IMG/VR virus record: IMGVR_UViG_3300044591_002206
Coordinates: 1 to 34,259 of that record
DNA length: 34,259 bases
From: a virus
Reading direction: 5' to 3' (one strand)
Part shown: positions 4,835-34,235 of the stretch, piece after piece
Position numbering within the stretch: position 1 is the first letter of the stretch
How the letters are laid out: the number at the start of each line of letters is the position of its first letter
The notes under the pieces: model-generated
The model's database searches: none
What the model was told of the DNA's origin: nothing
The model's input: the letters and a program-made list of their open reading frames with translations, nothing else
Program-made: the position numbers and the translations under genes

Positions 4835-5442
4835 CCCCACCATCTCCCACGGCCCCAGCCCATCCTCTGGCGGTTATCGACATGGACAAAGCCAGATCCG
4901 GGGTAGATGCCAACGCCTCCGGCCCCGAGCTTGTCGAGAAAGGCTCCCCACTCAGCCGGAGATCCTGAAGCGCAAGTGATGTCAGCGGCAACGGCCTGGC
5001 CGGTTCGACCCGGCTGGTCATAGATATGGACGCTGTTCGGCTCCCCGCCAACCTGCCGGTTATAGGCGGTATGGCGATAACCCGAGGTGATTGAGACCGG
5101 CCCGAACTTGGCCCGCAGCGGCTCTAGGTAAGTGGTGCAGAGATGATCCAAGCCGTCATAGGCCATCGGGGGGACCGGGGTGCCGTCCTTGGTATTGAAC
5201 TCGGCGTAGCTGAAGTGCTCAGAGGGCCGGCCAGTTGTTGCTTCTTTCTTCAGACGGGCCACCCGCTTTTTCAGCGTTGAGACCTTGTCCCGCGCTTGTA
5301 GGGCATCTTCGCTGGCCTCTTCGAGGCTCTGCCTCAGTCGCTTGACTCGGTTGAGGGCTCCATCCCTGACCCCCCGCCAGTAGGAAAGGCGCTCCTTGAG
5401 CGTGCTCCCAGTCGGCGGTTCCTTGATCTGATCATCACTCAC
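4831..5442 (-). CDS. Second lysis enzyme: M15-type peptidoglycan peptidase
   Basis: This 203-residue protein looks like an M15 zinc peptidase (D-Ala-D-Ala carboxypeptidase or L-Ala-D-Glu endopeptidase type), which cuts the peptide part of the wall. Likely zinc ligands are His139 (NSVHI), Asp154 (AVAADI) and His187 (FVHVD), with SITSGYRH upstream. The usual SxHxxGxAxD motif is stretched by an insertion (YDQPGRTG). Residues 12-68 form a charged coiled coil, as in the neighbouring lysozyme. It begins with GTG and overlaps the lysozyme start by 4 bp. Having both a muramidase and a peptidase suggests two-enzyme lysis. The start is supported by a promoter-like CACTTT 6 bp before the GTG. Confidence 0.88.
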   Translation of the reverse strand: MSDDQIKEPPTGSTLKERLSYWRGVRDGALNRVKRLRQSLEEASEDALQARDKVSTLKKRVARLKKEATTGRPSEHFSYAEFNTKDGTPVPPMAYDGLDHLCTTYLEPLRAKFGPVSITSGYRHTAYNRQVGGEPNSVHIYDQPGRTGQAVAADITCASGSPAEWGAFLDKLGAGGVGIYPGSGFVHVDNRQRMGWGRGRWWG

Positions 5443-5448
5443 CTCCCG

Positions 5449-5477
5449 AAAGTGCTCGGGCCGGGGCTATCTGCGCC
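5449..5477 (-). promoter_or_regulatory. Leaderless-type promoter for M15/lysozyme operon
   Basis: Minus strand: GGCGCA (5477-5472), 17 bp, CACTTT (5454-5449), 6 bp, GTG at 5442. The last bases before the GTG are GGGAG, which is too close to act as a normal ribosome site. Confidence 0.45.
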
Positions 5478-5504
5478 ATCGTTTTTCTTTTCCTTGGTTA
5501 TGTC

Positions 5505-5535
5505 GCCAGCAGAGCCGTCGGGGACGGCTGCTGGC
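5505..5535. other. Strong hairpin upstream of lysis genes
   Basis: GCCAGCA (5505-5511) pairs with TGCTGGC (5529-5535) and GCCGTC (5514-5519) with GACGGC (5523-5528), leaving a GA bulge and a GGG loop. There is no T-run on either side in the minus direction, so it is not a classical intrinsic terminator. It lies between the holin candidate and the lysis-enzyme promoter. Confidence 0.5.
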
Positions 5536-5550
5536 TTCCGCAGAAAATGC

Positions 5551-5562
5551 TTTAGCGCTAAA
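5551..5562. other. 12-bp perfect palindrome TTTAGCGCTAAA
   Basis: A perfect palindrome in the 150-bp gap between the holin candidate and the M15 gene. It could be an operator. No second copy was noticed. Confidence 0.35.
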
Positions 5563-5592
5563 CAACCGGGAGGGTGGATTGAACGCCCAGCT

Positions 5593-7615: not shown

Positions 7616-8428
7616 TTACTCCCAAGCCGACTGCCAGCGGGTGACCAGTCGGGTGTTTGCTCCATCACCTGAAGCGCCAAAGACAATCGGCACCCCGGCC
7701 GACATCGGCGGGATGGTGAAGAAGGTCGAGGCCGAGAAGTCCAGGCCGCCATAGGCGTTCTGGCCGCCATTCAGGAGAACCGTGCGCCGGGCGGTGTCGA
7801 TCTCCAGGTAGTCGCCATCATCAACGGTCCCGGTGTAAATCAGCTCTTCGCCGGTATCGGAGTTGGTGATCAGGAAATCATCGAACGGGCCATAAATCCA
7901 AAACTTGGTAGAGGCCGGAGCGGTGCCGCCGTTGAACAGCTCAGTCGATCCCCCGGCCGTGCTGATCTCGCGGGAATGAACTTCAACCGACTTGATGAAC
8001 GGATCGCCGGTCTTCAGCGACAGCTGAACCTCTTTGGGCCAGGCATCGCTCACGGTGATATAGGCCGCCGGGCGGAGGTTGGTGACCTCCTTTTCCCAGC
8101 CGGTGGCCTCGGTCCAGGAAAGGGTTAGGCCCTCGGTGCCTCTGAGCAGTCCATTGATCCTGGTCAGCCACTCGATCTTTCTGGCCCGCTCGAGCTGGTC
8201 ATGCTCAGCGATCAGGAGATCAAGGACAACTGAGCGGCCGCCCCGGAACATATCGCCGATCAGGGCGCCGTCTCCAGCGGCAACCTGAGTATCGGAAAAA
8301 TCAAAGGCGACATCGGTGGTGATCCGGGTCAGGTGGGCCAGGAAGTCATGCTCGCTTGAATCGGGGCCGACAATCCGTGAAGAGCCGCTCGGCAAGGTCA
8401 GCTTGTAGGGAAGGCTGGTCTGAAGCAT
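7616..8428 (-). CDS. Distal tail protein (Dit-like)
   Basis: This 270-residue protein lies immediately after the tape measure gene, the usual place of Dit in siphoviruses. The N-terminal part (LTLPSGSSRIVGPDSSEH, then GRSVVLDLLIAE) fits the tail-tube-like domain of Dit, and the C-terminal half is beta-rich with IYTGTVDDGDYLEIDTARRTVLLNG, a pattern recurrent in siphovirus tail components. It should form the hexameric ring joining tube and baseplate. The start ATG is preceded by a conserved promoter-like block rather than a Shine-Dalgarno site. Two bases separate its stop from the next ATG. Confidence 0.82.
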   Translation of the reverse strand: MLQTSLPYKLTLPSGSSRIVGPDSSEHDFLAHLTRITTDVAFDFSDTQVAAGDGALIGDMFRGGRSVVLDLLIAEHDQLERARKIEWLTRINGLLRGTEGLTLSWTEATGWEKEVTNLRPAAYITVSDAWPKEVQLSLKTGDPFIKSVEVHSREISTAGGSTELFNGGTAPASTKFWIYGPFDDFLITNSDTGEELIYTGTVDDGDYLEIDTARRTVLLNGGQNAYGGLDFSASTFFTIPPMSAGVPIVFGASGDGANTRLVTRWQSAWE

Positions 8429-8436: not shown

Positions 8437-8477
8437 ATCTTGCCCCGGCTGGCCTTGGCCGCGCCTTGGCTTCGCTT
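8437..8477 (-). promoter_or_regulatory. Leaderless-type promoter for Dit gene, with AAGCGAA box
   Basis: Minus strand: AAGCGAA (8477-8471), 5 bp, GGCGCG (8465-8460), 17 bp, CAAGAT (8442-8437), 8 bp, ATG 8428. Nearly the same block precedes the gene at 28703. Confidence 0.6.
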
Positions 8478-8478: not shown

Positions 8479-10923
8479 CTAGGCCAGGTTGTTAGCCAGC
8501 TGGTAGCTCAGCGACCGAACCGAGCTGTGCGGGTCATTGGCATCGAGCTTGAACTCGCCATTGAGGACAACGGTGGTGCCGCCCGGCCCCTTGGCCAAGG
8601 TCCGGCCGCCCTGGCCGAGGCCCATCTGCATGGCGTTAGAGCCAAAGGAGCTGAACGCCTCATAGCGCATTTCTGATGCCCGGCCCAGCTGCTCAATGAA
8701 GCTCATACCCGAGGAGCCCGAGCCAAGGCCCGATAGCTGGCCCAGGGTGTCCTGGATAGCGTCTTGAAGAATCGAGATCTGGGTCTTGTTCTTGGTCTTG
8801 CCGAGGCGCCCCCGGAGCAGGTTCAGCTTGGCCTCCAGCTTGGTCTTCATCTTGGCCCGGATTGACTCGACATCGCCGCCGTATCCCCCCTCGGCCAAGG
8901 CCAGCTCAGTCTCAAGGGCGGCCAGCTGCTGATCGATCCCCGGTGTCGTTCCATAGGCATCACTACGGATCCCCAGGCGCTCCTTTTCCATCTCCCGGCG
9001 GTCGAGCTGAGCTGAGCGCAGGGCCTGGCGGGCCTCTCTTCTGGCCTGTCCCTTGGAGACCTGAACCAGCTTGAGCATCTGCCGCTCGATCTTCTTGTTC
9101 ATCGAGATCAAGACCCCGTACTCGGCCGAGGTGATCTGGCCTCCGGAAAGCTCAAAGGCTCGGCGTTTCAGATCCATGTCGGCCTGGAGGTTGGAGATCT
9201 TGCTGTTCAGGCGGTTGGAGCGCTTGACCCGGCCGCCCTTGGCAAACATCGGAACACCCAGGGCCGAGGCGGCCTCCATCAGATAGCGCTGGTTGGCCTG
9301 GCGGTTGCCCTCTTGGCTGATCACCCATTCATCCTTGCCGCCCTCACCAGCAACGAAGAGTTGAGCCCCGCCAGAGTTCGGGCCGACCCGGCCGCCCTCT
9401 GAGAAGCCGAGAGCACCGCCAACGGCGCCGATAGCTCCGCCGACCCCGGAGATCACGCCCTTGACTTTGCCGATTGCCCCTTCAAAGACCCCGATGATCT
9501 TGTCGAGGACCGCCTTGATCTTTCCGTAGGCCCAGGCAAAGGGGCTGAGGATGGCCTGGCCAAGGCCGCGTAGGGCTCCGGCGATCTTGCCCGGCACATC
9601 GCGGAAGAAATCAACGATCCGGCGCCAGTTGCTGAGGATCCAGGGGATCGGGCCCAAGAAGCCCTTCTTGGCCATCTTGACAACGAAATCAGCGACATCG
9701 CCAAAGGCCTTCTTGATCCAGTTCCAGACCTTGCCGAGGAAGCTCTTGACCTTGTCCCAGTTCTTGATGATCAGGATTGCTGCGGTGACCAAGACAGCCA
9801 GGGCGATGCCAACCGGACCGGTGAGCATCGGGGCCAGGCGCAAGAAAGTGAAGAGGCTCTTGGCCACGGTAAAGAGGGTCTTGAAGACCTTGACAACGCC
9901 AAAGAGCTTGATGCCAATGGCCAGGAAGCCAGCCACCCCGGCGATGGTTGCCTGAACCGGGCCGGGGAGACCGGCAAAGGCCTTGACTACTCGAGCGACA
10001 GCGATGCCGACCCCCTTGACAACCGGCCAGAGCTTCTTGATGACCGTCCAGACATCTTCGAGGAAGTCACGGAACTGCCCGCCCGATCCGGTGCCTTTTT
10101 GCATCTCGGTGATGAACTTCGAAAGGGCGGTGACCCCCTTGTTGAGGATCGGGAGGAGCCTGCCGCCAATGTCTTCAAGGAAGTTTTTCCAAACCATCTG
10201 CAGCCGCTGAACTGGGTCAGCCTGAGAAGCGGCCGAGCCACCAAACTGGCTCATCACCTCATCAAGGATGACTCCTTGAGCTTTGACCATCTGGCCGTTC
10301 TTGACCATCCCCTCGATCTGAGCTTTTTGCTGATCGGTAAAGGTCACGCCCACGCGGGTCAGGGCGGTCAGCCCCTTGACTGGATCGTTGAGGGCCTTGC
10401 CGAGCTGGATCGATGAGGACTTCATGTCCTGGCCCATTGCCGCTGACATATCGACAACCGCCTGTGTGGTCTGGTTGAAGATGTCCTTGCCCTTGCCGCT
10501 TTCGTTGCGGATGTTCTTGAAAGTCAGGAGCAGATTGCCAGCAGTCTGGATCTGCTCATCATCAACGGCCGTTTTGTTCGAGATCGCCGTGCTCAGCTCT
10601 TCGAGATCCTTGGCAGTGACCTTGGCCACCCCGCCGGTGCTCTTGATCACTGCTTCGGTCTGTTTGGTGACCTTTTCGGCTTCGCGGGCCTCGGTGATTG
10701 CTGTCTTCAGTGAGACAGCTAGGCCAGCTCCGATTGCTGTGCCGGCGGCGGCCGCTCCTACCTTGAGGCCAGATTTGAGTTTCGATCCCAGGGCCGATGA
10801 GCGCTTCTCCAGCTTGCCCATGCTCCCCTCGGCCTGGCGCATGTCCTTATCTAGGGAGGTGAGGCCCTTGGAGTCATAGGTGAGTTTGACTCGCCCTTCA
10901 ATAGTGCCGACATCGAACGCCAT
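8479..10923 (-). CDS. Tape measure protein
   Basis: This 814-residue protein is the tail tape measure, the longest gene of the tail module, directly after the frameshifted chaperone. The N-terminus (about 1-290) is charged and helical. Residues about 300-390 are strongly hydrophobic (GVAGFLAIGIKLFGVV, then GPVGIALAVLVTAAILII), typical of the part that enters the host membrane. A Gly-rich stretch (GVISGVGGAIGAVGGALGF) precedes FVAGEGGKDEWVIS, a motif common in tape measures of Gram-positive phages. The C-terminal third is again coiled-coil-like. By the usual 0.15 nm per residue the tail would be near 120 nm. No lytic transglycosylase or peptidase domain is seen. Confidence 0.93.
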   Translation of the reverse strand: MAFDVGTIEGRVKLTYDSKGLTSLDKDMRQAEGSMGKLEKRSSALGSKLKSGLKVGAAAAGTAIGAGLAVSLKTAITEAREAEKVTKQTEAVIKSTGGVAKVTAKDLEELSTAISNKTAVDDEQIQTAGNLLLTFKNIRNESGKGKDIFNQTTQAVVDMSAAMGQDMKSSSIQLGKALNDPVKGLTALTRVGVTFTDQQKAQIEGMVKNGQMVKAQGVILDEVMSQFGGSAASQADPVQRLQMVWKNFLEDIGGRLLPILNKGVTALSKFITEMQKGTGSGGQFRDFLEDVWTVIKKLWPVVKGVGIAVARVVKAFAGLPGPVQATIAGVAGFLAIGIKLFGVVKVFKTLFTVAKSLFTFLRLAPMLTGPVGIALAVLVTAAILIIKNWDKVKSFLGKVWNWIKKAFGDVADFVVKMAKKGFLGPIPWILSNWRRIVDFFRDVPGKIAGALRGLGQAILSPFAWAYGKIKAVLDKIIGVFEGAIGKVKGVISGVGGAIGAVGGALGFSEGGRVGPNSGGAQLFVAGEGGKDEWVISQEGNRQANQRYLMEAASALGVPMFAKGGRVKRSNRLNSKISNLQADMDLKRRAFELSGGQITSAEYGVLISMNKKIERQMLKLVQVSKGQARREARQALRSAQLDRREMEKERLGIRSDAYGTTPGIDQQLAALETELALAEGGYGGDVESIRAKMKTKLEAKLNLLRGRLGKTKNKTQISILQDAIQDTLGQLSGLGSGSSGMSFIEQLGRASEMRYEAFSSFGSNAMQMGLGQGGRTLAKGPGGTTVVLNGEFKLDANDPHSSVRSLSYQLANNLA

Positions 10924-10931: not shown

Positions 10932-10960
10932 AGTATCTGGCCGGCCTTAGGCGCCGCGCC
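10932..10960 (-). promoter_or_regulatory. Leaderless-type promoter for tape measure gene
   Basis: Minus strand: GGCGCG (10960-10955), 17 bp, GATACT (10937-10932), 8 bp, ATG 10923. The -35-like hexamer lies inside the last codons of the chaperone extension. Confidence 0.5.
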
Positions 10961-12004
10961 TATCAGCGCGCATCCGATCCCTCAGGGCCTTGGCCTTTCT
11001 CATTGCTGCATGGCGCTGCTGGATCTGTCCAGCTGTGAAGCCATCCGGGATCTCTTCAGGGTCAAATACCGTTTGCGGTAGCTCGATTCCCTGCAGCTGA
11101 GCCTGAAAGCGCCGCTCGGTGTCCTCGTTCTTGGCCACTAGGTGCAAGAGGCGCTTGACCTCTTCCCAGGGGGTCTCATAAAGGACTTCGCGCCGGGTGA
11201 GGTTCAGTCCAAAAGAGGATCTGGTGAGCTGGAAGACGATGCCGGATCTGATGTCTCGGAGCTCGTCGAGCTCGGCGTTTCCTCTTCGGGCTGGCTCGGT
11301 TCGTTGCTCGAGGTCTCCACGAGCCCGCCGAGCTGGCTCTGGATGGTCTTGAGCGTTTCGCCCAAAGGGCCGCCTAGATCCCTCAGCTCTCCAATGACAT
11401 AGGCAACAACCTCGGCTGCCAGGTGGATGAAGTCGGCCGGCTTGAGCTTCTGGGTCAGCTCGGCTCGGTAGTCGAGCAGCTGAGCCTCAACCGTGTTTGT
11501 TTTGACTGCCTTCTCTAGGCGACCGGCCGGCATCATGGTCACGGCCACGGCCATGATGATCTCGTTGGCGCAAGCGTCATAGACCTCGGGGAAGACCTTG
11601 CCGAGAACAGCCAGCATCGGGGCTTCGCTGGGGAATGAGAACTGGATCGGCTCCTGCTTGAGCGTCTCCGGCGTGATGTCGAGGGCAGATATGGCCTCCT
11701 GATCTTCTGAGCTCAGGTCCTCGTAAAAAGTCCATTCCTGAAAGTCAGCGCTGAGCCGTTCGGTCAGGGCGGTCTGCTCCTCTTCGCTCAGGCCTTCGTA
11801 ATAGGCCTTGGAGACAAAGCCCTGGGCCTCGCCTTTCAGATAGTCGATCCGGGCATCATTGACCGTCTCCATCAGATCGGGAACGCGGTTCAGTACGCCC
11901 TTGGCCAGCCTGATCAGCTGGAGGACCTGCTCGGTGGAAAGCTCAGGAAGTTCTACTGTGCGGCCATCGCTCGGAAGGGTGACCTGTTTTGTTGTTTCGC
12001 TCAT
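10947..12004 (-). CDS. Tail assembly chaperone, long form (GT-type, -1 frameshift fusion)
   Basis: The chaperone gene continues in the -1 frame. The slippery heptamer is at 11369-11363, and the -1 frame is then open to the TAA at 10947, giving about 214 + 138 = 352 residues. The extension includes GNAELDELRDIRSGIVFQL, GLNLTRREVLYETPWEEVK and RLLHLVAKNEDTERRF, which look like true protein sequence, with no good ribosome site of its own. In siphoviruses the short (G) and long (GT) forms both bind the tape measure and recruit tail tube subunits, and the ratio is set by frameshifting. Position between tail tube and tape measure genes fits exactly. Confidence 0.85.
11204..12004 (-). CDS. Tail assembly chaperone, short form (G-type)
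   Basis: This is the zero-frame product, 266 residues: acidic and helical, with QVLQLIRLAKGVLNRVPDL, FSFPSEAPMLAVLGKVFPEV and KPADFIHLAAEVVAYVIGEL. It ends in a low-complexity Ser, Glu and Pro-rich tail (SSTSSETSDPASSSSSPD), all of it downstream of the slippery site. The same bases encode the more ordered -1 extension, so the zero-frame tail may be little constrained. The ATG is preceded by a leaderless-type promoter and sits within an inverted repeat of GTTTCGCT. Confidence 0.88.
   Translation of the reverse strand: MSETTKQVTLPSDGRTVELPELSTEQVLQLIRLAKGVLNRVPDLMETVNDARIDYLKGEAQGFVSKAYYEGLSEEEQTALTERLSADFQEWTFYEDLSSEDQEAISALDITPETLKQEPIQFSFPSEAPMLAVLGKVFPEVYDACANEIIMAVAVTMMPAGRLEKAVKTNTVEAQLLDYRAELTQKLKPADFIHLAAEVVAYVIGELRDLGGPLGETLKTIQSQLGGLVETSSNEPSQPEEETPSSTSSETSDPASSSSSPDPLLD
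11363..11369 (-). promoter_or_regulatory. Programmed -1 frameshift site CCCTTTG
   Basis: On the minus strand the zero-frame codons are CCT TTG preceded by C, that is C CCT TTG, fitting the canonical X XXY YYZ pattern (CCC, TTT, G). Slippage re-pairs the tRNAs on CCC and TTT. No stop lies in the -1 frame from here to 10947. A later TCTTTTG near the zero-frame end does not fit the pattern. Confidence 0.75.
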
Positions 12005-12010
12005 AAAGCG

Positions 12011-12051
12011 AAACTAGGCCGGGGGCCCCTGGTCTGACACTCGTTTCGCTT
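12011..12051 (-). promoter_or_regulatory. Leaderless-type promoter for tail chaperone, with AAGCGAA box and repeated GTTTCGCT
   Basis: Minus strand: AAGCGAA (12051-12045), 5 bp, TGTCAG (12039-12034), 17 bp, TAGTTT (12016-12011), 6 bp, ATG 12004. The -35-like hexamer is poor. GTTTCGCT occurs on the plus strand at 11994-12001 and 12043-12050, and its complement AGCGAAAC at 12007-12014, so the central copy can pair with either neighbour. Confidence 0.5.
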
Positions 12052-13099
12052 AGGAGCCGACAACCGGGGCCGAGTCATACTCATCGGCATCGGTGTTCTT
12101 GTGCTCGACGGTCAGAGCGGCCGTTCCATCATCGGCCTCTTCGACAGCGCCAGCAATCGAGATCTCAGCCGCGCCGCCTTCAGGGCTCGGGGTGATCTCA
12201 TCATCGGTGGTCATGGTGACATTGGCCAGCGTGTAGGAAGCGCTACGGAGAGCCGAGGTGGCGCCATAGCTCCAAGACCAGGCCAGGGCGCCCTTGAGTT
12301 CATCGCGGGTGATGCCATCGCCTTCAGCCGGGACGGCCGATCCATACTGGATCTGGTTCCAGAGGGCCAGGCCGTCTTCATCAACTAGGAAAGTGCCGGC
12401 CACTTCGATGCTCGGCTCGCCGCTCACGATGTCATAGGCCGAGACATCATCGGAGAAGTACAGCTCCTCACCAGTAGCCACGGAGAGGGCCAGCTGGGAG
12501 ACATTGCGGAAAGTGTCGCCATTGACCTCAACCGAGCCAGCGATGTCGGTCCAGACATAGGGCTCAGACTCATCGGCCGGGTCATCGGTCGGAGTCGGGT
12601 CAGCGGCCTGGGCGGCCTCAACGGTCAGGCCAATCACGGTGGCCTTGATCGTGACCGGGTCATCAGAACCGGCCGAGCCCTCGAGCTCGTAGCCGACAAC
12701 GCGGCAGTCAATGAACTTGTCGCGGAGAACCGTGTCCCCGGTGCCGATCCGCTGCACGAAAGTCAGCCAGGCCGAGTCATCAGCCTCAGAGGTCAGGGTG
12801 TGGGTATAGGGGGCGCTGGATCCGGTGACCGTGTCGTTGGTGTGGATGCAGCTCTCAACGAAGGCCAGGGCCTCCGGAGTGGCTAGAAGGGTGATCTCGC
12901 CGCCAACGGCCGTGGTCTTCTTGAAAGAGATCTTCTTGCCGAAACGCTTGCCATCGAGGAAGCGGCGCATGGCCGATTCGCTCTTGGGGGAGATGCCGCC
13001 CTCAATCAGCGGGAGCCTCTTCTGCATGTCGGTTGCGGCAACACCCTTGGTGGTCTGCTTGCCTACCCAGAGTGCTCCTGCGTCGCGTCGTAGTGCCAT
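12050..13099 (-). CDS. Major tail (tube) protein
   Basis: This 349-residue protein is placed between the tail terminator and tail chaperone genes, where siphoviruses encode the tail tube subunit. The N-terminal region (MALRRDAGALWVGKQTT, then PLIEGGISPKSESAMRRF) and the middle (FIDCRVVGYELEGSAGSDDP, WTDIAGSVEVNGD) fit tube proteins of the lambda V and phi-type families. The sequence is Thr, Ser, Asp and Ala-rich and beta-like with no coiled coil. The C-terminal part (SIAGAVEEADDGTAALTVEH) could be a small decoration domain. Hundreds of copies would polymerise around the tape measure. Confidence 0.85.
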   Translation of the reverse strand: MALRRDAGALWVGKQTTKGVAATDMQKRLPLIEGGISPKSESAMRRFLDGKRFGKKISFKKTTAVGGEITLLATPEALAFVESCIHTNDTVTGSSAPYTHTLTSEADDSAWLTFVQRIGTGDTVLRDKFIDCRVVGYELEGSAGSDDPVTIKATVIGLTVEAAQAADPTPTDDPADESEPYVWTDIAGSVEVNGDTFRNVSQLALSVATGEELYFSDDVSAYDIVSGEPSIEVAGTFLVDEDGLALWNQIQYGSAVPAEGDGITRDELKGALAWSWSYGATSALRSASYTLANVTMTTDDEITPSPEGGAAEISIAGAVEEADDGTAALTVEHKNTDADEYDSAPVVGS

Positions 13100-13106: not shown

Positions 13107-13135
13107 ATCTTGCAGGGGCGGCCACGGTCTGCCGG
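13107..13135 (-). promoter_or_regulatory. Leaderless-type promoter for major tail protein gene
   Basis: Minus strand: CCGGCA (13135-13130), 17 bp, CAAGAT (13112-13107), 7 bp, ATG 13099. The CAAGAT hexamer recurs at 8442-8437 and 28716-28711. Confidence 0.5.
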
Positions 13136-13622: not shown

Positions 13623-14012
13623 TCATGTCCTCCGCTTGAGCTGTTGCTGGATTGCCCGTTCAATGAACTGGCGGTACTTCAAGGCGTTGTCCTTCAGCGG
13701 CTGCTCGAGGTATTTGGCCTGGCCGTTGATGTGCTTGAAGTCGGTGCGCTCGTGCTGCACCTCGGCATAGGGGACATCAAAGATCACATTGACCGCTACC
13801 TGGGCTGACATTGTTCCCGGCCGTCCGGCCTTGAAGCCAACGGCGTTTTCGATCTCCCAGCGGGCAGATTCTCGGAGCGGTCCGTGCTTCTTCGGGGCCA
13901 AGCGCTGAGCCTTTCCGGTCAGGTCAGCTCCAACGATCTCTAGAGACTGGACGATGCCTTCTTTGATGGCCCGGTCGGCCGGGTCGATCCCTCGGTAGGG
14001 CTTGCTTGCCAT
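13623..14012 (-). CDS. Head-tail connector (HK97 gp10-like)
   Basis: This 129-residue protein resembles HK97 gp10-type neck proteins: an N-terminal helix (AIKEGIVQSLEIVGADLTGKAQ), LAPKKHGPLRESARW, the typical VPYAEVQHER and KYLEQPLKDN, then a terminal helix. Such proteins help attach the tail to the filled head. TAGCTT lies 6 bp before the ATG, so the gene may also be transcribed from its own start. The preceding gene stops 17 bp upstream. Confidence 0.85.
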   Translation of the reverse strand: MASKPYRGIDPADRAIKEGIVQSLEIVGADLTGKAQRLAPKKHGPLRESARWEIENAVGFKAGRPGTMSAQVAVNVIFDVPYAEVQHERTDFKHINGQAKYLEQPLKDNALKYRQFIERAIQQQLKRRT

Positions 14013-14018: not shown

Positions 14019-14047
14019 AAGCTAGGCGCCTAGAGGATCGCTGCGGG
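14019..14047 (-). promoter_or_regulatory. Leaderless-type promoter for gp10-like gene
   Basis: Minus strand: CCCGCA (14047-14042), 17 bp, TAGCTT (14024-14019), 6 bp, ATG 14012. It overlaps the end of the preceding gene. Confidence 0.4.
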
Positions 14048-15690: not shown

Positions 15691-15719
15691 AAGTTATGCC
15701 GGCCCCTGAGAGGCGCGCC
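15691..15719 (-). promoter_or_regulatory. Leaderless-type promoter for connector operon
   Basis: Minus strand: GGCGCG (15719-15714), 17 bp, TAACTT (15696-15691), 7 bp, ATG 15683. The same two hexamers with the same spacing precede the portal gene. Confidence 0.6.
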
Positions 15720-16784: not shown

Positions 16785-16813
16785 AATGTGTGCCGGGCCT
16801 CTTGGTCTGCCCG
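16785..16813 (-). promoter_or_regulatory. Leaderless-type promoter for capsid gene
   Basis: Minus strand: CGGGCA (16813-16808), 17 bp, CACATT (16790-16785), 7 bp, ATG 16777. It lies just after the scaffold terminator, as expected for a separately transcribed gene. Confidence 0.45.
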
Positions 16814-22363: not shown

Positions 22364-22404
22364 AACCTGCAAGAGGGACGGCCGGCCGGGCCATCGTTTC
22401 GCTT
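22364..22404 (-). promoter_or_regulatory. Leaderless-type promoter for methyltransferase, with AAGCGAA box
   Basis: Minus strand: AAGCGAA (22404-22398), 5 bp, GGCCCG (22392-22387), 17 bp, CAGGTT (22369-22364), 6 bp, GTG 22357. Confidence 0.45.
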
Positions 22405-23122: not shown

Positions 23123-24774
23123 TCAGCCTGGCGGTGGGCGTTTTCCCACTGCTTGCGGATCAGATTGACGGCGGCAATGAGACTGTCGAGGGTGTGTTGC
23201 TCATCGGCTTTCTCAAGGCCGCCGTCTTTCCCGACTTTGGCCTCTTTCATCTGCTCGATCAATAGGGCAGCATCATCGGGGCAGATCCCCAAGACGCCAT
23301 AGCGCTCTTCGGCCGGTAGGTCAGCCTGCTCGGCCGTTCTCCTGACCAGCGTTCTGATGAACTCGACATTGCGCCGTTTGTTCTTGGAGAAGCTCACGGC
23401 ATAGGACTGCCGGACCTCTTTGCGGTAGATCCTCTTGAAGCTCTGGTGAGCCTGGGCCCCTGATCCTCCGGGGTCATAGAGGACTCGATCAACGGCCGGG
23501 CCGAGGTTGGCCGCCTCGTTCATCATCTCGTTGCTGGCCGACTCAGCATCCATGTTGGTTAGCTGATCAGCTCGAGCGATATAGATCTGAAAGCGGGCCA
23601 GGTCCCAGCGAAGACACCAGCCCGTACCAGCGAAGCCCCAGTCAATCCCGAGGTCTTGGAGATCGTCTTTCGGGGTGAGCTTCCCGGCCTTGCGCTCCTT
23701 GGTCCATTCCCGGCCGAGGTTGGCCACGGCCAAGACTCCATCGGGATCGAAGGCCGCCCCGCTGAGATCGCCCTGCATTGCCTCTTCTGGGGTCTCCGGG
23801 TACTCGGTCTGAGCGGTGGCCAGGCCATAGATGGCCACTTGCTTTTCGAACCAGTCCTGATCTCGGCCGGGTCGAGCGCTTCGGGGAATGAATAGGGGGT
23901 GAAAGCCATTTCTGCCCTCTTGGGCGTTGTCCCAGATATTGGCGAAGTGCGCCCCCTTCCCGTGTCGGCCGCCGGAGCTAGAGCCGATGATCAACCGGCC
24001 GCCGCCCTCAATCGTTGGCATCGCTGCCTGAGCAACCTTCTCCGGATCGGCCGAGCCCTCATATCTGGCGAACTCGTCAAGGAAGAGGACCGCAACGGTC
24101 TCTGATCGGGCGGCCTCGTTAGGCGGTAGGGCCACAATGGATGAACCCCGCTCGGCCAGCTGAAACTCTTTGGCAGTGTCCAGTCCTGGCCGGCCCTTGG
24201 CGTCCTTTGACTCCGAGCCAATCGGAACGGCCAGCCAAGGGGCCTGATCCTGCAGATAGGTGAAGATCGAGCGGATATCCCGGAGCAGCTTGCTGGCGTT
24301 ATCCATGCGGTTAGAGATGGCCACCAGGCGGCTATTCCGGCCGGCGTCAGAGTAAGCGGCCAGCCAGGCGAAGTAGTGCAGCACTAGGAGGGTGAAGCCA
24401 TAGCGCCTGGTCTTGAGGACGATCAGCTTGTCGTGCTGATTCAGGGCCGGGGCCAGCTGGTCTTGCTGAGCGGGCCACATCTCTAGGGGCAAGCGCTCTC
24501 CACCCCCGGCCGGGACATGGCTCCCGTAGTTCTCGATGAAGTAGGCCCAGCCGGTTATCGGGTTCGAGACCCTCGAGCGCTCTTCTTCAGCGAAAGCCAG
24601 ATATGCCATCGGATCAGAGCGCAGCAGGTCAAGTTCAGCGGGACCCATCTTCAAGACCCGGTTGGGGGGTAGGGATCCGGCCGACATCCCGGCCGTTATG
24701 GACGATGCCTGATCTGGCTTATCGCTCCCAGTAGACGCGTTCGAGCTGAAAACCTGAGCAGCTCCAGGGTTCAT
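23119..24774 (-). CDS. terL: Large terminase subunit
   Basis: This 551-residue protein is the DNA-packaging motor and nuclease. The ATPase part has KLIVLKTRRYGFTLLVLHY (a Walker A-like region with unusual spacing), and AVLFLDEFARYE is a clear Walker B. The RNase H-like nuclease part begins near LGIDWGFAGTG and continues with VDRVLYDPGGSGAQAH and a late acidic region (EKADEQHTLDSLIAAVNLI). Its start overlaps the small subunit stop (ATGA). Its stop overlaps that of the convergent gene at 22544-23122. Confidence 0.93.
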   Translation of the reverse strand: MNPGAAQVFSSNASTGSDKPDQASSITAGMSAGSLPPNRVLKMGPAELDLLRSDPMAYLAFAEEERSRVSNPITGWAYFIENYGSHVPAGGGERLPLEMWPAQQDQLAPALNQHDKLIVLKTRRYGFTLLVLHYFAWLAAYSDAGRNSRLVAISNRMDNASKLLRDIRSIFTYLQDQAPWLAVPIGSESKDAKGRPGLDTAKEFQLAERGSSIVALPPNEAARSETVAVLFLDEFARYEGSADPEKVAQAAMPTIEGGGRLIIGSSSGGRHGKGAHFANIWDNAQEGRNGFHPLFIPRSARPGRDQDWFEKQVAIYGLATAQTEYPETPEEAMQGDLSGAAFDPDGVLAVANLGREWTKERKAGKLTPKDDLQDLGIDWGFAGTGWCLRWDLARFQIYIARADQLTNMDAESASNEMMNEAANLGPAVDRVLYDPGGSGAQAHQSFKRIYRKEVRQSYAVSFSKNKRRNVEFIRTLVRRTAEQADLPAEERYGVLGICPDDAALLIEQMKEAKVGKDGGLEKADEQHTLDSLIAAVNLIRKQWENAHRQAD

Positions 24775-25409
24775 TGGTCATCCCCGGCCTCGATCTCGAC
24801 AACCTCAGCGTCAATAGGCTGATTTGCCTCTTTTGAGTCATCGCCAGAGGCCAGTTCCGGGGCCTGAGAGCCGCTGTGAAGTGCCCGCGCCTGCTCCAAC
24901 CTCCGCTGGGCCGCCTCGATCTGCTGAGGGGTCTGAGGCAGCAGCTGATGCTCATGGCCAATCGAGCCCTCATGAGTGACCTTTTCAGTCTTGCCCCAAC
25001 GGTCTTTGAACTTTCGCTCCAGGTACCAGGCCGCCGCCTGCCAAGTTCCCTCATTGGCCGCGCTCTGGATCATTCCGATGGCCTCGGCCTCAGCAACCGC
25101 TTCGGCTTTTTTGACCTCCTGCCAGAAGAGCCAGAAGGGCAGCTCCCGCTCATCAGGGGCTGAGCTCCAATCCGGGCGAAGATCCGGCCGGGCTCGACGC
25201 TGACGGTCGGTCAGCTCGTTCCACTCATCAACCGCGTCATCCCATTCCTCGCAGGCCTGGCTGACATCTTCGCCACGCTTCATCCAGCGAAAAAAGGTCC
25301 GGGTGCCAATGCCTGCCGCCCCGGCCGCCGTTGATGCGTAGTTGCCCTCGCGGATCAACCTGACGATCCGGTCTTGCTTGTCCTCGTTCAGCTTGCTTTC
25401 TCTTGGCAC
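24771..25409 (-). CDS. terS: Small terminase subunit
   Basis: This 212-residue protein has an N-terminal helix-turn-helix (about residues 10-48, DRIVRLIREGNYASTAAGAA then IGTRTFFRWMKRGED) that would bind the packaging site, and a central helical part (FWQEVKKAEAVAEAEAIGMI, then GTWQAAAWYLERKFKDRWG), the typical terminase small-subunit signature. The C-terminus is acidic and likely binds the large subunit. It begins with GTG, with promoter-like TAGTTT 6 bp upstream, and is translationally coupled to the large subunit. Confidence 0.9.
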   Translation of the reverse strand: MPRESKLNEDKQDRIVRLIREGNYASTAAGAAGIGTRTFFRWMKRGEDVSQACEEWDDAVDEWNELTDRQRRARPDLRPDWSSAPDERELPFWLFWQEVKKAEAVAEAEAIGMIQSAANEGTWQAAAWYLERKFKDRWGKTEKVTHEGSIGHEHQLLPQTPQQIEAAQRRLEQARALHSGSQAPELASGDDSKEANQPIDAEVVEIEAGDDQ

Positions 25410-25415: not shown

Positions 25416-25444
25416 AAACTAGGGGCCAGAGGTCTATTGGCGCA
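25416..25444 (-). promoter_or_regulatory. Leaderless-type promoter for terminase operon
   Basis: Minus strand: TGCGCC (25444-25439), 17 bp, TAGTTT (25421-25416), 6 bp, GTG 25409. Confidence 0.5.
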
Positions 25445-25471: not shown

Positions 25472-25500
25472 GGCGCGCCTCCACATACCCTTGGCACGCT
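25472..25500 (+). promoter_or_regulatory. Leaderless-type promoter for plus-strand gene
   Basis: GGCGCG (25472-25477), 17 bp, CACGCT (25495-25500), 6 bp, ATG 25507. This carries the late-gene pattern on the opposite strand. No Shine-Dalgarno is present. Confidence 0.5.
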
Positions 25501-25506: not shown

Positions 25507-26070
25507 ATGGACATCAGCCCGAAGGATGAGCTGGAGCACCTGCTGAAAAGGGTGGCCATCAGATCAGCAACCAAGCTGCCGTGCTCAGTGATGCTGGACC
25601 GGGGAGCGCTTGATGATCCGGGCCGAGAGTTTGAGACCTTTGATCTGTTCTTCGCTATGCCAGCCGCTGTTGGAGATCGGATTGACCCCGACACCGTTGA
25701 TGGCCATGAGCTCTTGGACTCATTGATTGAAGGCTCGTGTGAGCTGATCCTTGATCGCTTCAAGCAGCTCTTGCCGGGCTTTGATGGCCCGATCAGCACT
25801 ATCGGCCTATCAACTGAGGTTGAGTGGGCCTTTGGCTCTGAAGTCCTCGAGGCTGAAGCGATGCTCGGGGATTTCTGGGACGAAACAGCCATCCCCGGCC
25901 GCCTGACCTTTTACGCCCGCTATGTCGCCCCGATTGATCAGCAAGCCGGCCGATGCCGAACCGCTCCGCCGCCCAAGCTGCCAACCCCTACCCGGCCAGC
26001 CCCCTGGGCGCGGGAAAGTGAAGCCGAAGAAGAACTCAGAGACCCGCCGCTCAGCTGGTTCGAGCCCTAG
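25507..26070 (+). CDS. Hypothetical plus-strand protein, moron candidate
   Basis: I do not recognise this 187-residue acidic protein. The first 140 residues look globular (DELEHLLKRVAIRSATKLPC, then DGHELLDSLIEGSCELILDR), and the last 45 are Pro, Ala and Glu-rich and probably disordered. There is no signal peptide. It is divergent from the small terminase gene, with the two starts 97 bp apart, and convergent with the fibre gene at 26077. An antisense frame of 130 codons covers part of it, but the plus frame is longer and has the promoter pattern. It may be an accessory or moron gene. Confidence 0.75.
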   Translation: MDISPKDELEHLLKRVAIRSATKLPCSVMLDRGALDDPGREFETFDLFFAMPAAVGDRIDPDTVDGHELLDSLIEGSCELILDRFKQLLPGFDGPISTIGLSTEVEWAFGSEVLEAEAMLGDFWDETAIPGRLTFYARYVAPIDQQAGRCRTAPPPKLPTPTRPAPWARESEAEEELRDPPLSWFEP

Positions 26071-27396: not shown

Positions 27397-28299
27397 CTAG
27401 GCCCTTTCTGCCTTGTATCCCAGATAGCAGCGGCCGGAAACGCCCTCGACCCTGACTTCATAGAGATCGCCGTTGGCCAGGGTGACTGGGAGTGATGCTG
27501 AGCTGCCGTTCTTGCGCCGCCATTCAACCGTGCCGGTGCCGTCTTTGAGCTCGTTGCTGAGAACGATTGAGAAGCCGGAGCGATTGAGGAAGCCCAGGGT
27601 GCGGGCCTCGGTCCAAGGGCCAAGGGATAGGCCAACAGGGGCATCAGCGCCGTCAGCGCCTGCAGAGCCGTTGCTCCCGTTCGCCCCGTTTGTTCCTCGG
27701 GGGCCTTGCTCTCCTTGCGGTCCAGCCGGGCCGGTGTTGCCGCGCTCGCCCTGCTCGCCTCGAGGGCCAGCCGGGCCAGTTGCTCCCTTCTGAGCAAAGA
27801 GGCCCCACTTGCCCGCCCCTGATCCCGGCTTGTTCGAGTTCGAGGCGGTATGGGGATCGGCACAGATATAGGTCGAGCCCTCGTAGCGGACCAGATCGTT
27901 GTCTGAGTAGGAGGTGCCGGAGTTCCAAGCGCCGCGCCAGACTCCGACTTCAACCGCTGAGGTCATGTCCTCGCCGCCGGGGCCTTGCGGGCCTTCAACA
28001 GCTTGAACGATCATCGCCCAGTAGCTAGGAGAGGCGGCCGGGGGCTGGTTGGTGTTTGCCTGCAGACAGATATAGGCCGAGCCATCGCCATCATCGGCAG
28101 TGGTATGGACAACGACATCGAGCTCTGCATAGGCAGTAGCGCTGTCCCATTCTCCGGCCGGGTTCCAGCCCGGAGCGCTCTCACCAGCAAGGCCAACGCC
28201 GGGATCACCTTTCTCGCCGAGATTGCGGCCAACGACCTGGATGACCTCCTCGGTCTGGATGACCAGGTGCTTGTCGTTTTGCCGTGATGCTTCAGCCAT
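27397..28299 (-). CDS. Collagen-like tail fibre with two carbohydrate-binding-like modules
   Basis: This 300-residue protein has two copies of a module resembling chitin-binding-type (CBM5/12) domains, at about residues 47-97 (WDSATAYAELDVV, AYICLQANTNQ, SYWAMI) and 121-168 (WNSGTSYSDNDLV, STYICADPHT, GKWGLF). A collagen-like Gly-X-Y stretch of about 15 triplets follows at 172-218, then a beta-rich C-terminal domain. Collagen repeats form trimers in phage fibres. The Trp and Tyr-rich modules may bind cell-surface sugar. The ATG overlaps the upstream stop (ATGA), and the receptor-binding candidate follows. Confidence 0.85.
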   Translation of the reverse strand: MAEASRQNDKHLVIQTEEVIQVVGRNLGEKGDPGVGLAGESAPGWNPAGEWDSATAYAELDVVVHTTADDGDGSAYICLQANTNQPPAASPSYWAMIVQAVEGPQGPGGEDMTSAVEVGVWRGAWNSGTSYSDNDLVRYEGSTYICADPHTASNSNKPGSGAGKWGLFAQKGATGPAGPRGEQGERGNTGPAGPQGEQGPRGTNGANGSNGSAGADGADAPVGLSLGPWTEARTLGFLNRSGFSIVLSNELKDGTGTVEWRRKNGSSASLPVTLANGDLYEVRVEGVSGRCYLGYKAERA

Positions 28300-28703
28300 C
28301 AGTCCTCGGCCCTTGCGTATTCCCGCTCGACCTTCAAGGACCAGCGATAGGAGCTCACCTGGCCGGAGACCGTCTCGGTGATGTCAAGCTCGGCCCAGAC
28401 CTTCTTGGCGTTAGTGCCTGACACCGCTGCCCTGGTGGTCTCGGCATCAATAGTGATTGTCACTGTGCCATCTCCAAGAACAACGCCATCCAGATCGGTC
28501 AGGCTGACCAGGGCCGGGGCCCCGCTATCAACTGTCCCGGCTCGGATCTGAAACAGGGCCTCGTAGGCAACTGGATCGTCGCCAGATCCGACTGATGCTC
28601 CGGTGAGGTCAATCGGATCTCCTGAAGAGTCAGCAAGGTTGAGCTGTTCCGAGTAGTCAGATCCTTGGCTGAGGGTTCCTTCGTTTAGATATGCAGCCGC
28701 CAT
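28299..28703 (-). CDS. Baseplate upper-protein-like (BppU N-terminal type)
   Basis: This 134-residue protein begins YLNEGTLSQGSDYSEQLNLA then SGDPIDLTGASVG and ends VWAELDITETVSGQVSSYRW, resembling the baseplate-anchoring domain that in lactococcal-type phages attaches receptor-binding proteins. It is beta-rich with no membrane part. It is the first gene of a three-gene fibre operon, coupled to the collagen-like gene by an ATGA overlap. A promoter-like block almost identical to that of the Dit gene precedes it, so the two tail-tip operons may be co-regulated. Confidence 0.7.
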   Translation of the reverse strand: MAAAYLNEGTLSQGSDYSEQLNLADSSGDPIDLTGASVGSGDDPVAYEALFQIRAGTVDSGAPALVSLTDLDGVVLGDGTVTITIDAETTRAAVSGTNAKKVWAELDITETVSGQVSSYRWSLKVEREYARAED

Positions 28704-28710
28704 CCCCCTG

Positions 28711-28750
28711 ATCTTGGTTCGGGGGATGGCGGCCGCGCCTGAGTTCGCTT
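28711..28750 (-). promoter_or_regulatory. Leaderless-type promoter for fibre operon, with AAGCGAA box
   Basis: Minus strand: AAGCGAA (28750-28744), 4 bp, GGCGCG (28739-28734), 17 bp, CAAGAT (28716-28711), 7 bp, ATG 28703. The block begins beside the TAG of the metallophosphoesterase gene, just as the Dit block begins at the TAG of the tape measure gene. Confidence 0.6.
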
Positions 28751-30318: not shown

Positions 30319-30358
30319 AAGGTAGGCCCGAGGAATAGGGCATGGGCACATTTCGCTT
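30319..30358 (-). promoter_or_regulatory. Leaderless-type promoter for membrane-protein gene, with AAGCGAA box
   Basis: Minus strand: AAGCGAA (30358-30352), then TACCTT (30324-30319), 6 bp, ATG 30312. At 17 bp spacing the -35 hexamer would be GCCCAT, which is poor. Confidence 0.4.
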
Positions 30359-30386: not shown

Positions 30387-31187
30387 CTATTCCTCGGGAT
30401 TTTCTAGGGCTTCTCTGAGCAAGCGAAGCGCACGCTCTTCCCGCGCGGCAAACAGCTGAGTCAGCACGCGGGTTTTTTGCAGGTTGTCTTCTCGCTGCAC
30501 TCGATCCCGCTGCTCGGGGGTCAGCTTCTCGAGGTCATGCTCACGGGCCATCGAGTAGGGCGGATTTGCCCTGAGCAGAAAGAGCACCCCAGCCAGCTCT
30601 TCCTCGGTGAGGTCGGCCAGCTCGGGAACTTCTTGGCGCAAGGGCTTGAGCAGTTTTTCTTTGGCCTCCCTGGGCAGCTTGGTCGGGATCTTGCTCTCGC
30701 CTTGCCGCCAGCGTCTTTCACTTGAGTGGTAGGGGGTGCGGCCACACCAGCCACGCTCGGGGAGTTCGTAGGGCTGAAGGCCGAGACGCCAGAGCAGCTC
30801 TTCAAGGCTTTCCCGCTTGATCGGTAGGAGCTTCTTGGAGAACTTCAGCTCATCGCCCGAGCCTGACCGATCAGACAACCCGATCCAAGATCTGATCCGG
30901 GCGTCCCAGTTACCGCCGGGCTGCTCATCAGAGCCCATAAAGACCGCCCGGCGCTGAAGCAGGGCATCGCGCTCATCCTTTCGGCTGGCGGCAATGACCT
31001 TGGGCGGATCAGAGCAAGCCCGGACCAGTGAGGTTGTTGGCTCTTTCAGGGCCAGATAGCGGCGGAAGACATCAGAGAACTCGTTGGCCTCATTGAACAG
31101 CGGCCAGGCTAGATAGTGAGTGCCCGAGACATAGTTGGCTTGGACCCAACCGTTGGGCAGTTCTGGTGGCAGGTGTTCGTAAAGCAT
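30387..31187 (-). CDS. Hypothetical protein
   Basis: I do not recognise this 266-residue protein. It is highly charged and helical in its C-terminal half (LPREAKEKLLKPLRQEVPEL, LEKLTPEQRDRVQREDNL and TQLFAAREERALRLLREAL). The N-terminal half has a few aromatic residues (NYVSGTHYLAWPLFNEANEF) and GWCGRTPYHSSERRWRQGE near the middle. It contains no metal-binding or nuclease motif I can identify. A promoter-like CAGGGT lies 6 bp before the ATG. It belongs to a cluster of small unknown genes next to an XRE-type regulator. Confidence 0.75.
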   Translation of the reverse strand: MLYEHLPPELPNGWVQANYVSGTHYLAWPLFNEANEFSDVFRRYLALKEPTTSLVRACSDPPKVIAASRKDERDALLQRRAVFMGSDEQPGGNWDARIRSWIGLSDRSGSGDELKFSKKLLPIKRESLEELLWRLGLQPYELPERGWCGRTPYHSSERRWRQGESKIPTKLPREAKEKLLKPLRQEVPELADLTEEELAGVLFLLRANPPYSMAREHDLEKLTPEQRDRVQREDNLQKTRVLTQLFAAREERALRLLREALENPEE

Positions 31188-31819: not shown

Positions 31820-31825
31820 GGCTCA

Positions 31826-31831
31826 AAAGTA
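31826..31831 (-). promoter_or_regulatory. -10-like hexamer before XRE gene
   Basis: Minus strand TACTTT (31831-31826), 6 bp before ATG 31819. No good -35-like hexamer is seen at 17 bp, so this is weaker than the others. Confidence 0.35.
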
Positions 31832-31837
31832 GGGCGT

Positions 31838-32221
31838 TCAGTCCTCAAAACCGGGCGGCGGGCCGTGCTGCCAAACCGGCCGGCCCTCAAGCTCACACCA
31901 GAGCTCATAGAAAGTGAAGTTGAGGTCATAGCGGCAGAGAAAGGCATCAGCCTTGTCTAGATTCGGGGTTACCCCTTCCCTGCGCCAGCGGTACAGGGCT
32001 CGGGTGTCGCTGCCCGAGACCGGCATACCATCGACTCTGATCCCCTCTTGTTCATCCTCGGTGATCAGCTCAGCTAGATAGGCCGGCCAGCTTTCGGAAT
32101 GCACTGCATACCTACGGCGATGAGGACGATGGGGCCGCCGGGCGCCTCTTGATGTTTCACCTCCTCTCGCTGGGGTACTCGTTGCCCGGCGGCCCTGTTG
32201 TCCTATGGCTTTTTCGGCCAT
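31838..32221 (-). CDS. Hypothetical protein, possible DNA-binding
   Basis: This 127-residue protein has a strongly basic, probably disordered N-terminus (residues 1-38, with RRPHRPHRRRYA) and a compact C-terminal part. The stretch SGSDTRALYRWRREGVTPNL then DKADAFLCRYDLNFTFYELW resembles a helix-turn-helix regulator body, so it may bind DNA, but I do not recognise the family. It is 18 bp upstream of the XRE gene and could share its message. GATGTT is 6 bp before the ATG, consistent with the leaderless pattern. It follows the adhesin gene. Confidence 0.65.
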   Translation of the reverse strand: MAEKAIGQQGRRATSTPARGGETSRGARRPHRPHRRRYAVHSESWPAYLAELITEDEQEGIRVDGMPVSGSDTRALYRWRREGVTPNLDKADAFLCRYDLNFTFYELWCELEGRPVWQHGPPPGFED

Positions 32222-32293
32222 GCGGGAAACATCGGACCTTTTGACCGAGGCACAGAACTTTTTGCAAAGAAATCCGGAGAGGCCTGATCTGGC

Positions 32294-34198
32294 CTAGAGA
32301 GCGCCGCTGACCATCAGGGCTCCAGCGATAGCTGCAGTCGAGCCCCGGCCAGCAATCCGAACCGGATCTGAAGCGGCAACGGCCGTGCCGGCCTCGTTGG
32401 TCGCGGTAACAACAACCCGGACCCAGAAGCCTCTGACCTCGCTGGTGACATTTAGCAGCTGATCGTTGTTGCCAATATCAATCCAGCCGGTGCTTCCGGT
32501 CAAGCTCTTTTCCCAGGCATAGGTGAAGGTGGGATAGGCGAAGCCCTCCCAGTCTCCGGAAACGCCAACCAGCTGCTCAGGCCCGGCTTCAATGAACGGA
32601 GCCGAGATCAGCTCCGGGTCTTCAGCCACATATCCAGTGGTTGGCGAGTAGGCGACATCGGTGCCGATTGAGTTTGTGCCAGTCACCCGCACTCGGAGGT
32701 ACTTGCCGCCGTCAGCTTCGGTCGGCGTGTAGGTCGAAGAAGTCGCCCCGCTGATGTCGCTCCAAGGGGTTGTTCCCTCATCAGAGCGCTGCCACTGGTA
32801 GTCAAAAGCCAAGGCCGGGTAGCCGTTCCAGCCGCCTTGGAACGCGGTCAGCTCGTTGCCGACTTCAAGCACCCCGGCATAGTTGATCGACGGCTGAACG
32901 GTATTAGCCGGAGCCCAGTTGATCGGCCCGGTCACGGTGCTGAAGCCAAGGGCCGAGCCGACCGAGTTATTGCCAGCTGCCCGGAGCCGGAGAAACTTGC
33001 CAGCGTCCTGCCAGGTGGTCGTGTAGTTCAGAGAGGTTGCCCCGCTGATGACTTCCCAGCCCCCTAGACCATCGCTTGATCTGAACCATTGGTAAGTCAA
33101 GGTTGGTGTCGGGAAGCCGGTCCAGGTCCCGGCCGTTCCGGTCAGCTCAACGCCAACCTCCAGCGGGCCGGAATAGCTGACCGATGGGGCCTCGGTATTG
33201 GCCGGGCTCCAGTTAATGACATCAGTAGCCCCAGTCAAGGCGGTCTGAGATCCAAGGAGGTTGGTGGCCTGAACTCTGGCTCGGAGGTACTGGCCAGCGT
33301 CGGCCGGGTCGAGCGTGTAACTAGAAGCTGTTGCCCCGCTGATTGTCGTCCAGCCGGTTGAGCCATTAGCCGAGCGCTCCCACTCATAGGCATAAGTGAT
33401 CGGCGTGGTTCCGCTCCAAGTGCCGTTGCTGGTGCTCAGGCTCTGACCGACCAGCCTAGTCCCGGTGATCGAGGGCAGTGAAGTGTTGGCCACGGCAAAG
33501 GCGCTGCCATATTGGTAGTGAGCGGCGATCCGGGCAGCTGATAGGGCCGTGCCATAAATCGCGGCCTCATCAATCTGCAGAGAGTAGGTCCGGTTGGTAT
33601 GGCCAATCTGGACTGTTGATGCGGTGGCCCAGGCCAAAATGTCGGTGATGCCTGAGGCCGTACTGGTTCCAGCCAAAACGCCATCAACATAGGTCTGAGC
33701 CCGAACCGAGCCGCCAAGATCTTCGATGACTCCCACCAGGTGGTAAGTCTGGTTCAGGCTGACCGGGACAGTCGAGGGGTAGGTCGTGCTGCTGGACGAG
33801 GTGTTGAGATTGACTCGCGTGCCGAGGTAAAGAACGCTGTTTGAGACCGTGAGGGCCAGTCCCTGGTTGCCGTTGAGCTTGAGAATGTCATGAGAGCTAG
33901 TGGTCGGAAGAGTCCCGCCAAAGCGAACCCAGGCCTCAAAGGTCAAACCGCTTCGCCCAGTGGTCAAATCGCCAACGGTTGCAGTGGCGACTGAGTTAGT
34001 AGTCACTGCCGGGAGGATCGCTGAAGCTCCAGCCGGGTTGCTGTTGAGCAGAGAGCTCTGCCCCTTCTGCACCGCTGTTGCTGCCCAGGTGGCCGTCCGG
34101 TTATTGCCCGAGCTGTCGGCAACGGTGTTGCCCGAGGTCTCATCGAGCCGGTAATAGACGAGAGGGTTATCGGCAAGGACTTGTGCTGAGTAGGCCAT
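32294..34198 (-). CDS. LamG-like lectin plus four Ig-like repeats: adhesin or tail fibre
   Basis: This 634-residue protein has an N-terminal concanavalin/LamG-like domain (about residues 8-230; LVYYRLDETSGNTVADSSGN, LTFEAWVRFGGTLP, AQTYVDGVLAGTSTA and IDEAAIYGTALSAARIAAHY), then four tandem Ig-like repeats to about residue 615. The repeats share patterns such as YQWQRS, ISGATSSTYT and KYLRVRVTGTNSIGT, with linkers like INWAPANTVQPS. LamG domains often bind sugars, and such repeats are typical of actinobacterial surface proteins. There is no signal peptide, so a virion fibre is more likely than a secreted protein. The C-terminus ends in a short Ala and Gly-rich tail. Confidence 0.85.
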   Translation of the reverse strand: MAYSAQVLADNPLVYYRLDETSGNTVADSSGNNRTATWAATAVQKGQSSLLNSNPAGASAILPAVTTNSVATATVGDLTTGRSGLTFEAWVRFGGTLPTTSSHDILKLNGNQGLALTVSNSVLYLGTRVNLNTSSSSTTYPSTVPVSLNQTYHLVGVIEDLGGSVRAQTYVDGVLAGTSTASGITDILAWATASTVQIGHTNRTYSLQIDEAAIYGTALSAARIAAHYQYGSAFAVANTSLPSITGTRLVGQSLSTSNGTWSGTTPITYAYEWERSANGSTGWTTISGATASSYTLDPADAGQYLRARVQATNLLGSQTALTGATDVINWSPANTEAPSVSYSGPLEVGVELTGTAGTWTGFPTPTLTYQWFRSSDGLGGWEVISGATSLNYTTTWQDAGKFLRLRAAGNNSVGSALGFSTVTGPINWAPANTVQPSINYAGVLEVGNELTAFQGGWNGYPALAFDYQWQRSDEGTTPWSDISGATSSTYTPTEADGGKYLRVRVTGTNSIGTDVAYSPTTGYVAEDPELISAPFIEAGPEQLVGVSGDWEGFAYPTFTYAWEKSLTGSTGWIDIGNNDQLLNVTSEVRGFWVRVVVTATNEAGTAVAASDPVRIAGRGSTAAIAGALMVSGAL

Positions 34199-34206
34199 CT
34201 CGGTTG

Positions 34207-34235
34207 AAAGTAGGCCTGACGGCCGGGGCCGCGCA
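34207..34235 (-). promoter_or_regulatory. Leaderless-type promoter for LamG adhesin gene
   Basis: Minus strand: TGCGCG (34235-34230), 17 bp, TACTTT (34212-34207), 8 bp, ATG 34198. The bases CAACCGAG before the ATG are identical to those before the tape measure ATG. Confidence 0.5.

Follow-up and report, generated by a model that had tools for sequence, protein, structure and literature searches.

The window analysed here is the complete IMG/VR virus record IMGVR_UViG_3300044591_002206, a stretch of 34,259 bases with 61% GC, in which a GC-rich -35 box, a spacer of 17 base pairs (bp) and a -10 box recur together just before the start codons of many genes. The window encodes an SPP1-type portal, terminase, capsid, tail tube, tape measure, distal tail (Dit)-like and lysis proteins, together with an integrase, an excisionase and helix-turn-helix (HTH) proteins; this gene set identifies it as a tailed, temperate phage, probably a siphovirus. 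The minus strand carries almost all late genes, and an N6/N4 DNA methylase gene (20672-22357, minus) sits between the portal and terminase genes. One close relative was found, IMGVR_UViG_3300044591_002907 (36,234 bp; hereafter G001), which has the same gene order, circularly permuted, and 64-83% nucleotide identity to the window in alignment; no full-length tblastn match to the methylase gene was found in it. Relative to G001, approximately 1.6 kilobases appear to be missing at the joint of the window (1-952 / 34236-34259), and the gene at 38 on the plus strand is truncated at its beginning; the window record may be incomplete.

The first-pass annotation had proposed a recurring leaderless promoter composed of a GGCGCG-type box, exactly 17 bp, NANNNT and then a start codon 6-8 bp later, and every site and coordinate that it quoted is present as written. 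The sites bearing the GC-rich box are given below, where "matrix" refers to hits in the window, on either strand, of a weight matrix built from G001 alone.

8437-8465, minus strand: GGCGCG-N17-CAAGAT before the distal tail (Dit-like) gene 7616-8428; AAGCGAA at 8471-8477; the G001 ortholog has both elements
10932-10960, minus strand: GGCGCG-N17-GATACT before the tape measure gene 8479-10923; near-identical in G001
15691-15719, minus strand: GGCGCG-N17-TAACTT before gene 15231-15683; matrix rank 2
20138-20166, minus strand: GGCGCG-N17-TAACTT before the portal gene 18631-20130; matrix rank 1
28711-28739, minus strand: GGCGCG-N17-CAAGAT before gene 28299-28703; AAGCGAA at 28744-28750
25472-25500, plus strand: GGCGCG-N17-CACGCT before gene 25507-26070 of unknown function
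5449-5477, minus strand: GGCGCA-N17-CACTTT before the lysis gene 4831-5442; matrix rank 3, though the gene has no G001 ortholog
25416-25444, minus strand: TGCGCC-N17-TAGTTT before the terminase small subunit gene 24771-25409; matrix rank 9, outside the training set
34207-34235, minus strand: TGCGCG-N17-TACTTT before the laminin-G/Ig-like gene 32294-34198; matrix match
13107-13135, minus strand: CCGGCA-N17-CAAGAT before the tail tube gene 12050-13099; matrix match
14019-14047, minus strand: CCCGCA-N17-TAGCTT before gene 13623-14012; matrix match
16785-16813, minus strand: CGGGCA-N17-CACATT before the major capsid gene 15842-16777; matrix match
3558-3586, plus strand: CCGGCA-N17-TACTTT before gene 3593-4018; matrix match

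GGCGCG occurs 28 times in the window, and the full GGCGCG-N17-NANNNT pattern six times on the two strands; in all six the box is separated by 6-8 bp from a gene start (8428, 10923, 15683, 20130 and 28703 on the minus strand, 25507 on the plus strand). Spacers of 10-25 bp other than 17 gave 0-3 matches each, one of them (k=14) before a start codon triplet. The same pattern is found seven times in G001, six times before starts, and matches with other spacers from 10 to 25 almost never fall at starts. In dinucleotide-shuffled sequence, with no start position required, the pattern had a mean of 1.7 matches and a maximum of 7, a range that includes the six observed. The raw count is therefore not decisive and was dropped as proof, and it is the placement at gene starts that decides. 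In a test made without choosing GGCGCG beforehand, nnnGC[AG] at the 17-bp spacing was present at 12 of the 20 gene starts that have a -10-like box and at 4 of the 149 remaining RTG triplets (Fisher p = 2.5e-10). This placement, the single spacing, and the conservation and cross-genome prediction given below already refute chance or base composition as the source, an explanation left with a negligible probability; the recurring pattern is real and far above chance.

To define the -35 box, the upstream regions of both phages were aligned on the -10 box only, leaving the -35 unchosen. This alignment revealed G at -20 in 27 of 29 regions and C at -19 in 27 of 29, followed mostly by A or G, so that GGCGCG as the motif itself was replaced by a G-C-R core lying 20-18 bp before a -10 box of the form [T/C]AnnnT. 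The CCGGCA-like set, which the first-pass annotation had hesitated to count as independent evidence, shares this core in the same register and consequently does count; the two sets are one element, SSGCR. Within that set the core is present before 13099, 16777, 14012 and 3593 and is missing at 5892, where the hexamer is CCGCCA, while the close variants proposed at 5442, 25409 and 34198 all carry it in register. The -35 is thus nnnGCR and, as had been suggested, unlike TTGACA; matches to TTGACA/TATAAT numbered 2 + 2 in the window versus 3.3 + 3.9 in shuffles.

A box of the form [TCG]AnnnT stands 6-8 bp, mostly 6-7 bp, before 22 of the 36 gene starts, and 13 of these 22 also have the GC core. 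Shine-Dalgarno sequences (GGAG, GAGG or AGGA at the appropriate distance) precede 4 of the 36 genes and no core-bearing start. An element that is repeated through the genome and always lies directly before start codons could also be a translation-linked motif, akin to the Start Associated Sequences (SAS) of Cluster K mycobacteriophages. SAS, however, occupy the ribosome-binding position, whereas the conserved positions here lie 12-36 bp upstream of the start codon, keep a -10/-35 spacing and come without a Shine-Dalgarno sequence, which makes a role in translation very improbable.

Comparison of the window with G001 disclosed 80% identity in the -35 box and 90% in its core, decreasing to 60% in the spacer and 46% in the upstream DNA. 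The top seven matches of the G001-trained matrix all fell 6-8 bp before gene starts in the window, as did 11 of the best 13 overall (ranks 8 and 12 lay elsewhere), and those at 5442 and 25409 correspond to no training site. These results, with the 17-bp spacing, the start-codon position and the lack of Shine-Dalgarno sequences, support the original proposal, a leaderless promoter that recurs and has a GC-rich -35, as the best reading. The matrix and comparison revealed nothing comparable in four actinophages and distant prophages, and the promoter class is absent from the distant Thermoleophilia prophages and the four actinophages examined. Scans of viral_contigs with the portal, terminase small subunit, tape measure, tail tube and early protein retrieved G001 or nothing; two scans with the promoter pattern gave 88 and 111 stretches, and among those listed several sites occurred together only in pieces of G001. 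Only two phages, the window and G001, carry the class.

A second upstream element, AAGCGAA, had been missed by the earlier reading. Five -10 boxes that precede open frames in the window (8428, 12004, 22357, 28703 and 30312) have it 27-28 bp upstream, and its AGCGAA core has no other spacing between 10 and 44 bp there; in G001, five of seven AGCGAA-type cases lie at 26-28 bp. Three window sites lack the GC core, indicating that the two upstream elements may occur together or apart:

12011-12051, minus strand: AAGCGAA-N28-TAGTTT, no GC core, before gene 11204-12004; kept in G001
30319-30358, minus strand: AAGCGAA-N27-TACCTT, lacking the GC core; lies before the holin-like gene, whose start is moved to ATG 30312
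22364-22404, minus strand: AAGCGAA-N28-CAGGTT before the DNA methylase gene, for which the start GTG 22357 is preferred over TTG 22372

AAGCGAA is probably a second protein-binding site, and its placement suggests that the methylase starts at GTG 22357 and the holin-like protein at ATG 30312.

Inverted repeats accompany two of these promoters. One, CCATCCCCC...GGGGGATGG (28696-28728, minus), spans the -10 box and start codon of gene 28703, is largely kept in G001 as CATCCCCC...GGGGGATG, and is possibly an operator private to that promoter. Another, AAGCGAAAC ... GTTTCGCTT (12005-12051, minus), flanks the promoter of gene 12004 and is partly kept in G001. Palindromes at some sites (GGCGCGCC and the repeat at 28703), in a temperate phage with an integrase and HTH proteins, would fit a GC box that is mainly an operator, with a phage repressor or silencer over the -35 keeping the late promoters off in the lysogen and any -35 role secondary. 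The SSGCR core is generally not palindromic, however (CCGGCA, TGCGCG, GGCGCA); the sites face one way relative to the gene, and operators would not need a rigid spacing of 17 bp to the -10 box. We consider this explanation rather improbable.

The 13 starts with the GC core belong mostly to virion, packaging and lysis genes. A -10 box with neither upstream element precedes the excisionase (2471), HNH (2922) and HTH (31819) genes, the genes at 31187 and 32221, and the small gene at 5892; starts without the upstream elements are mainly those of regulatory or early genes. The excisionase, HNH and 32221 genes share approximately CCGAYnTTY before ATG, without the GC core (2472-2490, 2903-2921 and 32222-32240), and these start regions could form a second, early promoter class. 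A terminator-like hairpin, CGCCCC-TTGACC-GGGGCG-TTTTCTCT, lies just upstream of the major capsid promoter, and an intrinsic terminator-like hairpin at 3510-3537 precedes the promoter of gene 3593, both of which fit separate transcription units.

To infer the host, we used the attachment site of the phage:

2674-2710, minus strand: attP core adjoining the genes for excisionase and integrase; consists of the 5' half of a tRNA-Val(CAC) gene; kept in G001

The attP core usually matches the 3' half of a tRNA, and here it is the 5' half. Exact matches to this tRNA-Val half were found mostly in Solirubrobacterales and other Thermoleophilia, with a minority in Alphaproteobacteria, mainly Rhodospirillales. 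Near those tRNAs, Thermoleophilia frames displayed TANNNT at 6-7 bp from the start in 33 cases versus 5 at internal control codons; the alphaproteobacterial frames near matching tRNAs showed no such peak at 6-7 bp. Relatives of the portal occur in actinophages and in Thermoleophilia prophages. The host is probably a Thermoleophilia bacterium that uses leaderless genes. The GC core at -20/-19 was not seen at 48 host leaderless starts, and GGCGCG-N17-TANNNT-start was not enriched in 20 candidate host genomes, where the 21 places listed were no more than in the reversed control. On these comparisons, the leaderless arrangement follows that of the likely host, and what is particular to the phage is the GC-rich -35.

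A host housekeeping or alternative sigma factor with a -35 preference tolerating nnnGCR could read such promoters with no phage factor needed. The -10 box and start geometry do match host leaderless genes, and CCGGCA shares G3, C5 and A6 with TTGACA, as a GC-shifted form would. Against this stand the unenriched composite pattern in the 20 genomes and the 48 host starts without the core, along with the regulatory genes of the same phage, which lack it as well; we therefore regard a host sigma factor acting unaided as doubtful.

Instead, the sites likely form a late-promoter class private to the phage, which host RNA polymerase would read once redirected by a phage-linked factor. The polymerase would contact the [T/C]AnnnT -10 box and, 17 bp upstream, the GC-rich -35 with its G-C-A/G core. 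Transcription would then begin 6-8 bp downstream of the -10, at the start codon or directly beside it, yielding leaderless mRNAs accepted by the host ribosome. Most late units (capsid, portal, tail tube, tape measure, Dit, terminase small subunit and lysis) would have their own promoter rather than belong to one long operon. The -10 box and leaderless start would be served by ordinary host machinery. Because the GC -35 was not seen as a host element, we infer that a phage-supplied or phage-induced factor reads it, which may be an activator, a replacement for sigma region 4 or an alternative sigma factor. Such a factor would be made from the early region, limiting late transcription to the lytic phase, and AAGCGAA, approximately one helical turn further upstream, may assist or replace the GC box. 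The more specific proposal, that this phage lineage has an unrecognised factor of its own that directs host RNA polymerase to nnnGCR and AAGCGAA and turns on about sixteen leaderless late units at once, as a sigma-appropriation or sigma-replacement system with no relation to MotA/AsiA or gp39, is tentative, and we give it a little under an even chance.

Two early-region genes are possible sources of this factor:

30387-31187, minus strand: candidate late regulator of 266 amino acids (aa), 78% identical in G001
31838-32221, minus strand: candidate late regulator of 127 aa with a possible helix-turn-helix by eye; -10-like box, no GC core

Neither had a family match in Pfam or PHROGs, and a search of 399 Thermoleophilia genomes for the early protein found no match. 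A sigma factor gene in the window was considered and rejected, the sole hint being a weak Sigma70_r4 match that fell short of the cut-off (E 3e-4) within an ordinary HTH_3 protein. Several observations weigh against the overall interpretation. The window genes scanned yielded no sigma factor or activator, and structure models of 30387-31187 and 31838-32221 were of low confidence (mean predicted local distance difference test scores of 44 and 50) and were not used. Several -10 boxes are weak (CAAGAT, CACGCT, GATACT), and the site pairs are not fully independent because they come from only two related phages. The late/early split was drawn from gene function rather than timing, and the host is a probable one, some Rhodospirillales carrying the same tRNA half.

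Phage-specific promoters often signal a phage protein taking over host RNA polymerase, and this class is defined well enough from sequence alone for testing. It would combine leaderless translation with separate promoters for most late units and offers an aid to start-codon annotation in such phages. A partial literature search found no description of a GC-rich -35 for phage late promoters, which is weak evidence of novelty, and no phage transcription work in Thermoleophilia.

Leaderless genes with TANNNT are known in Actinobacteria, as the first-pass annotation had stated; in Actinobacteria and Deinococcus-Thermus, according to the portion of PMC3160421 considered here, TANNNT lies approximately 12 bp before the start codon, without a Shine-Dalgarno sequence. 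The phage promoters resemble these in lacking a Shine-Dalgarno sequence and in a -10 position that would put the transcription start at or near the start codon. Those leaderless genes are described in that portion without a GC-rich -35, whereas the phage late units mostly add nnnGCR at a fixed spacing. Position 1 of the phage -10 box is also often C, not T.

The mRNAs of Thermus phage P23-45 are leaderless. Its middle and late promoters likewise depend on a phage-redirected host RNA polymerase, with gp39 displacing sigma region 4 (PMC7403470), but they are extended -10 promoters, whereas here the -35 position ranks second in conservation, behind the -10. In T4 middle promoters, MotA/AsiA replaces the -35 contact (PMC7403470); as proposed here, a phage box stands in for the usual -35 and the host contact at the -10 is retained. 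Unlike in T4, the starts would be leaderless, the box sequence and host are unrelated, and no MotA/AsiA relative was found. The SAS of Cluster K and of Cluster EF Microbacterium phages (PMC3203893, PMC7302621) are also short motifs before many actinophage genes; they are scarce or missing in the host, are kept between relatives and sometimes come with a second linked element. SAS are a 13-bp motif at the ribosome-binding site (PMC3203893), whereas the phage element described here has the spacing of a -35 and -10.

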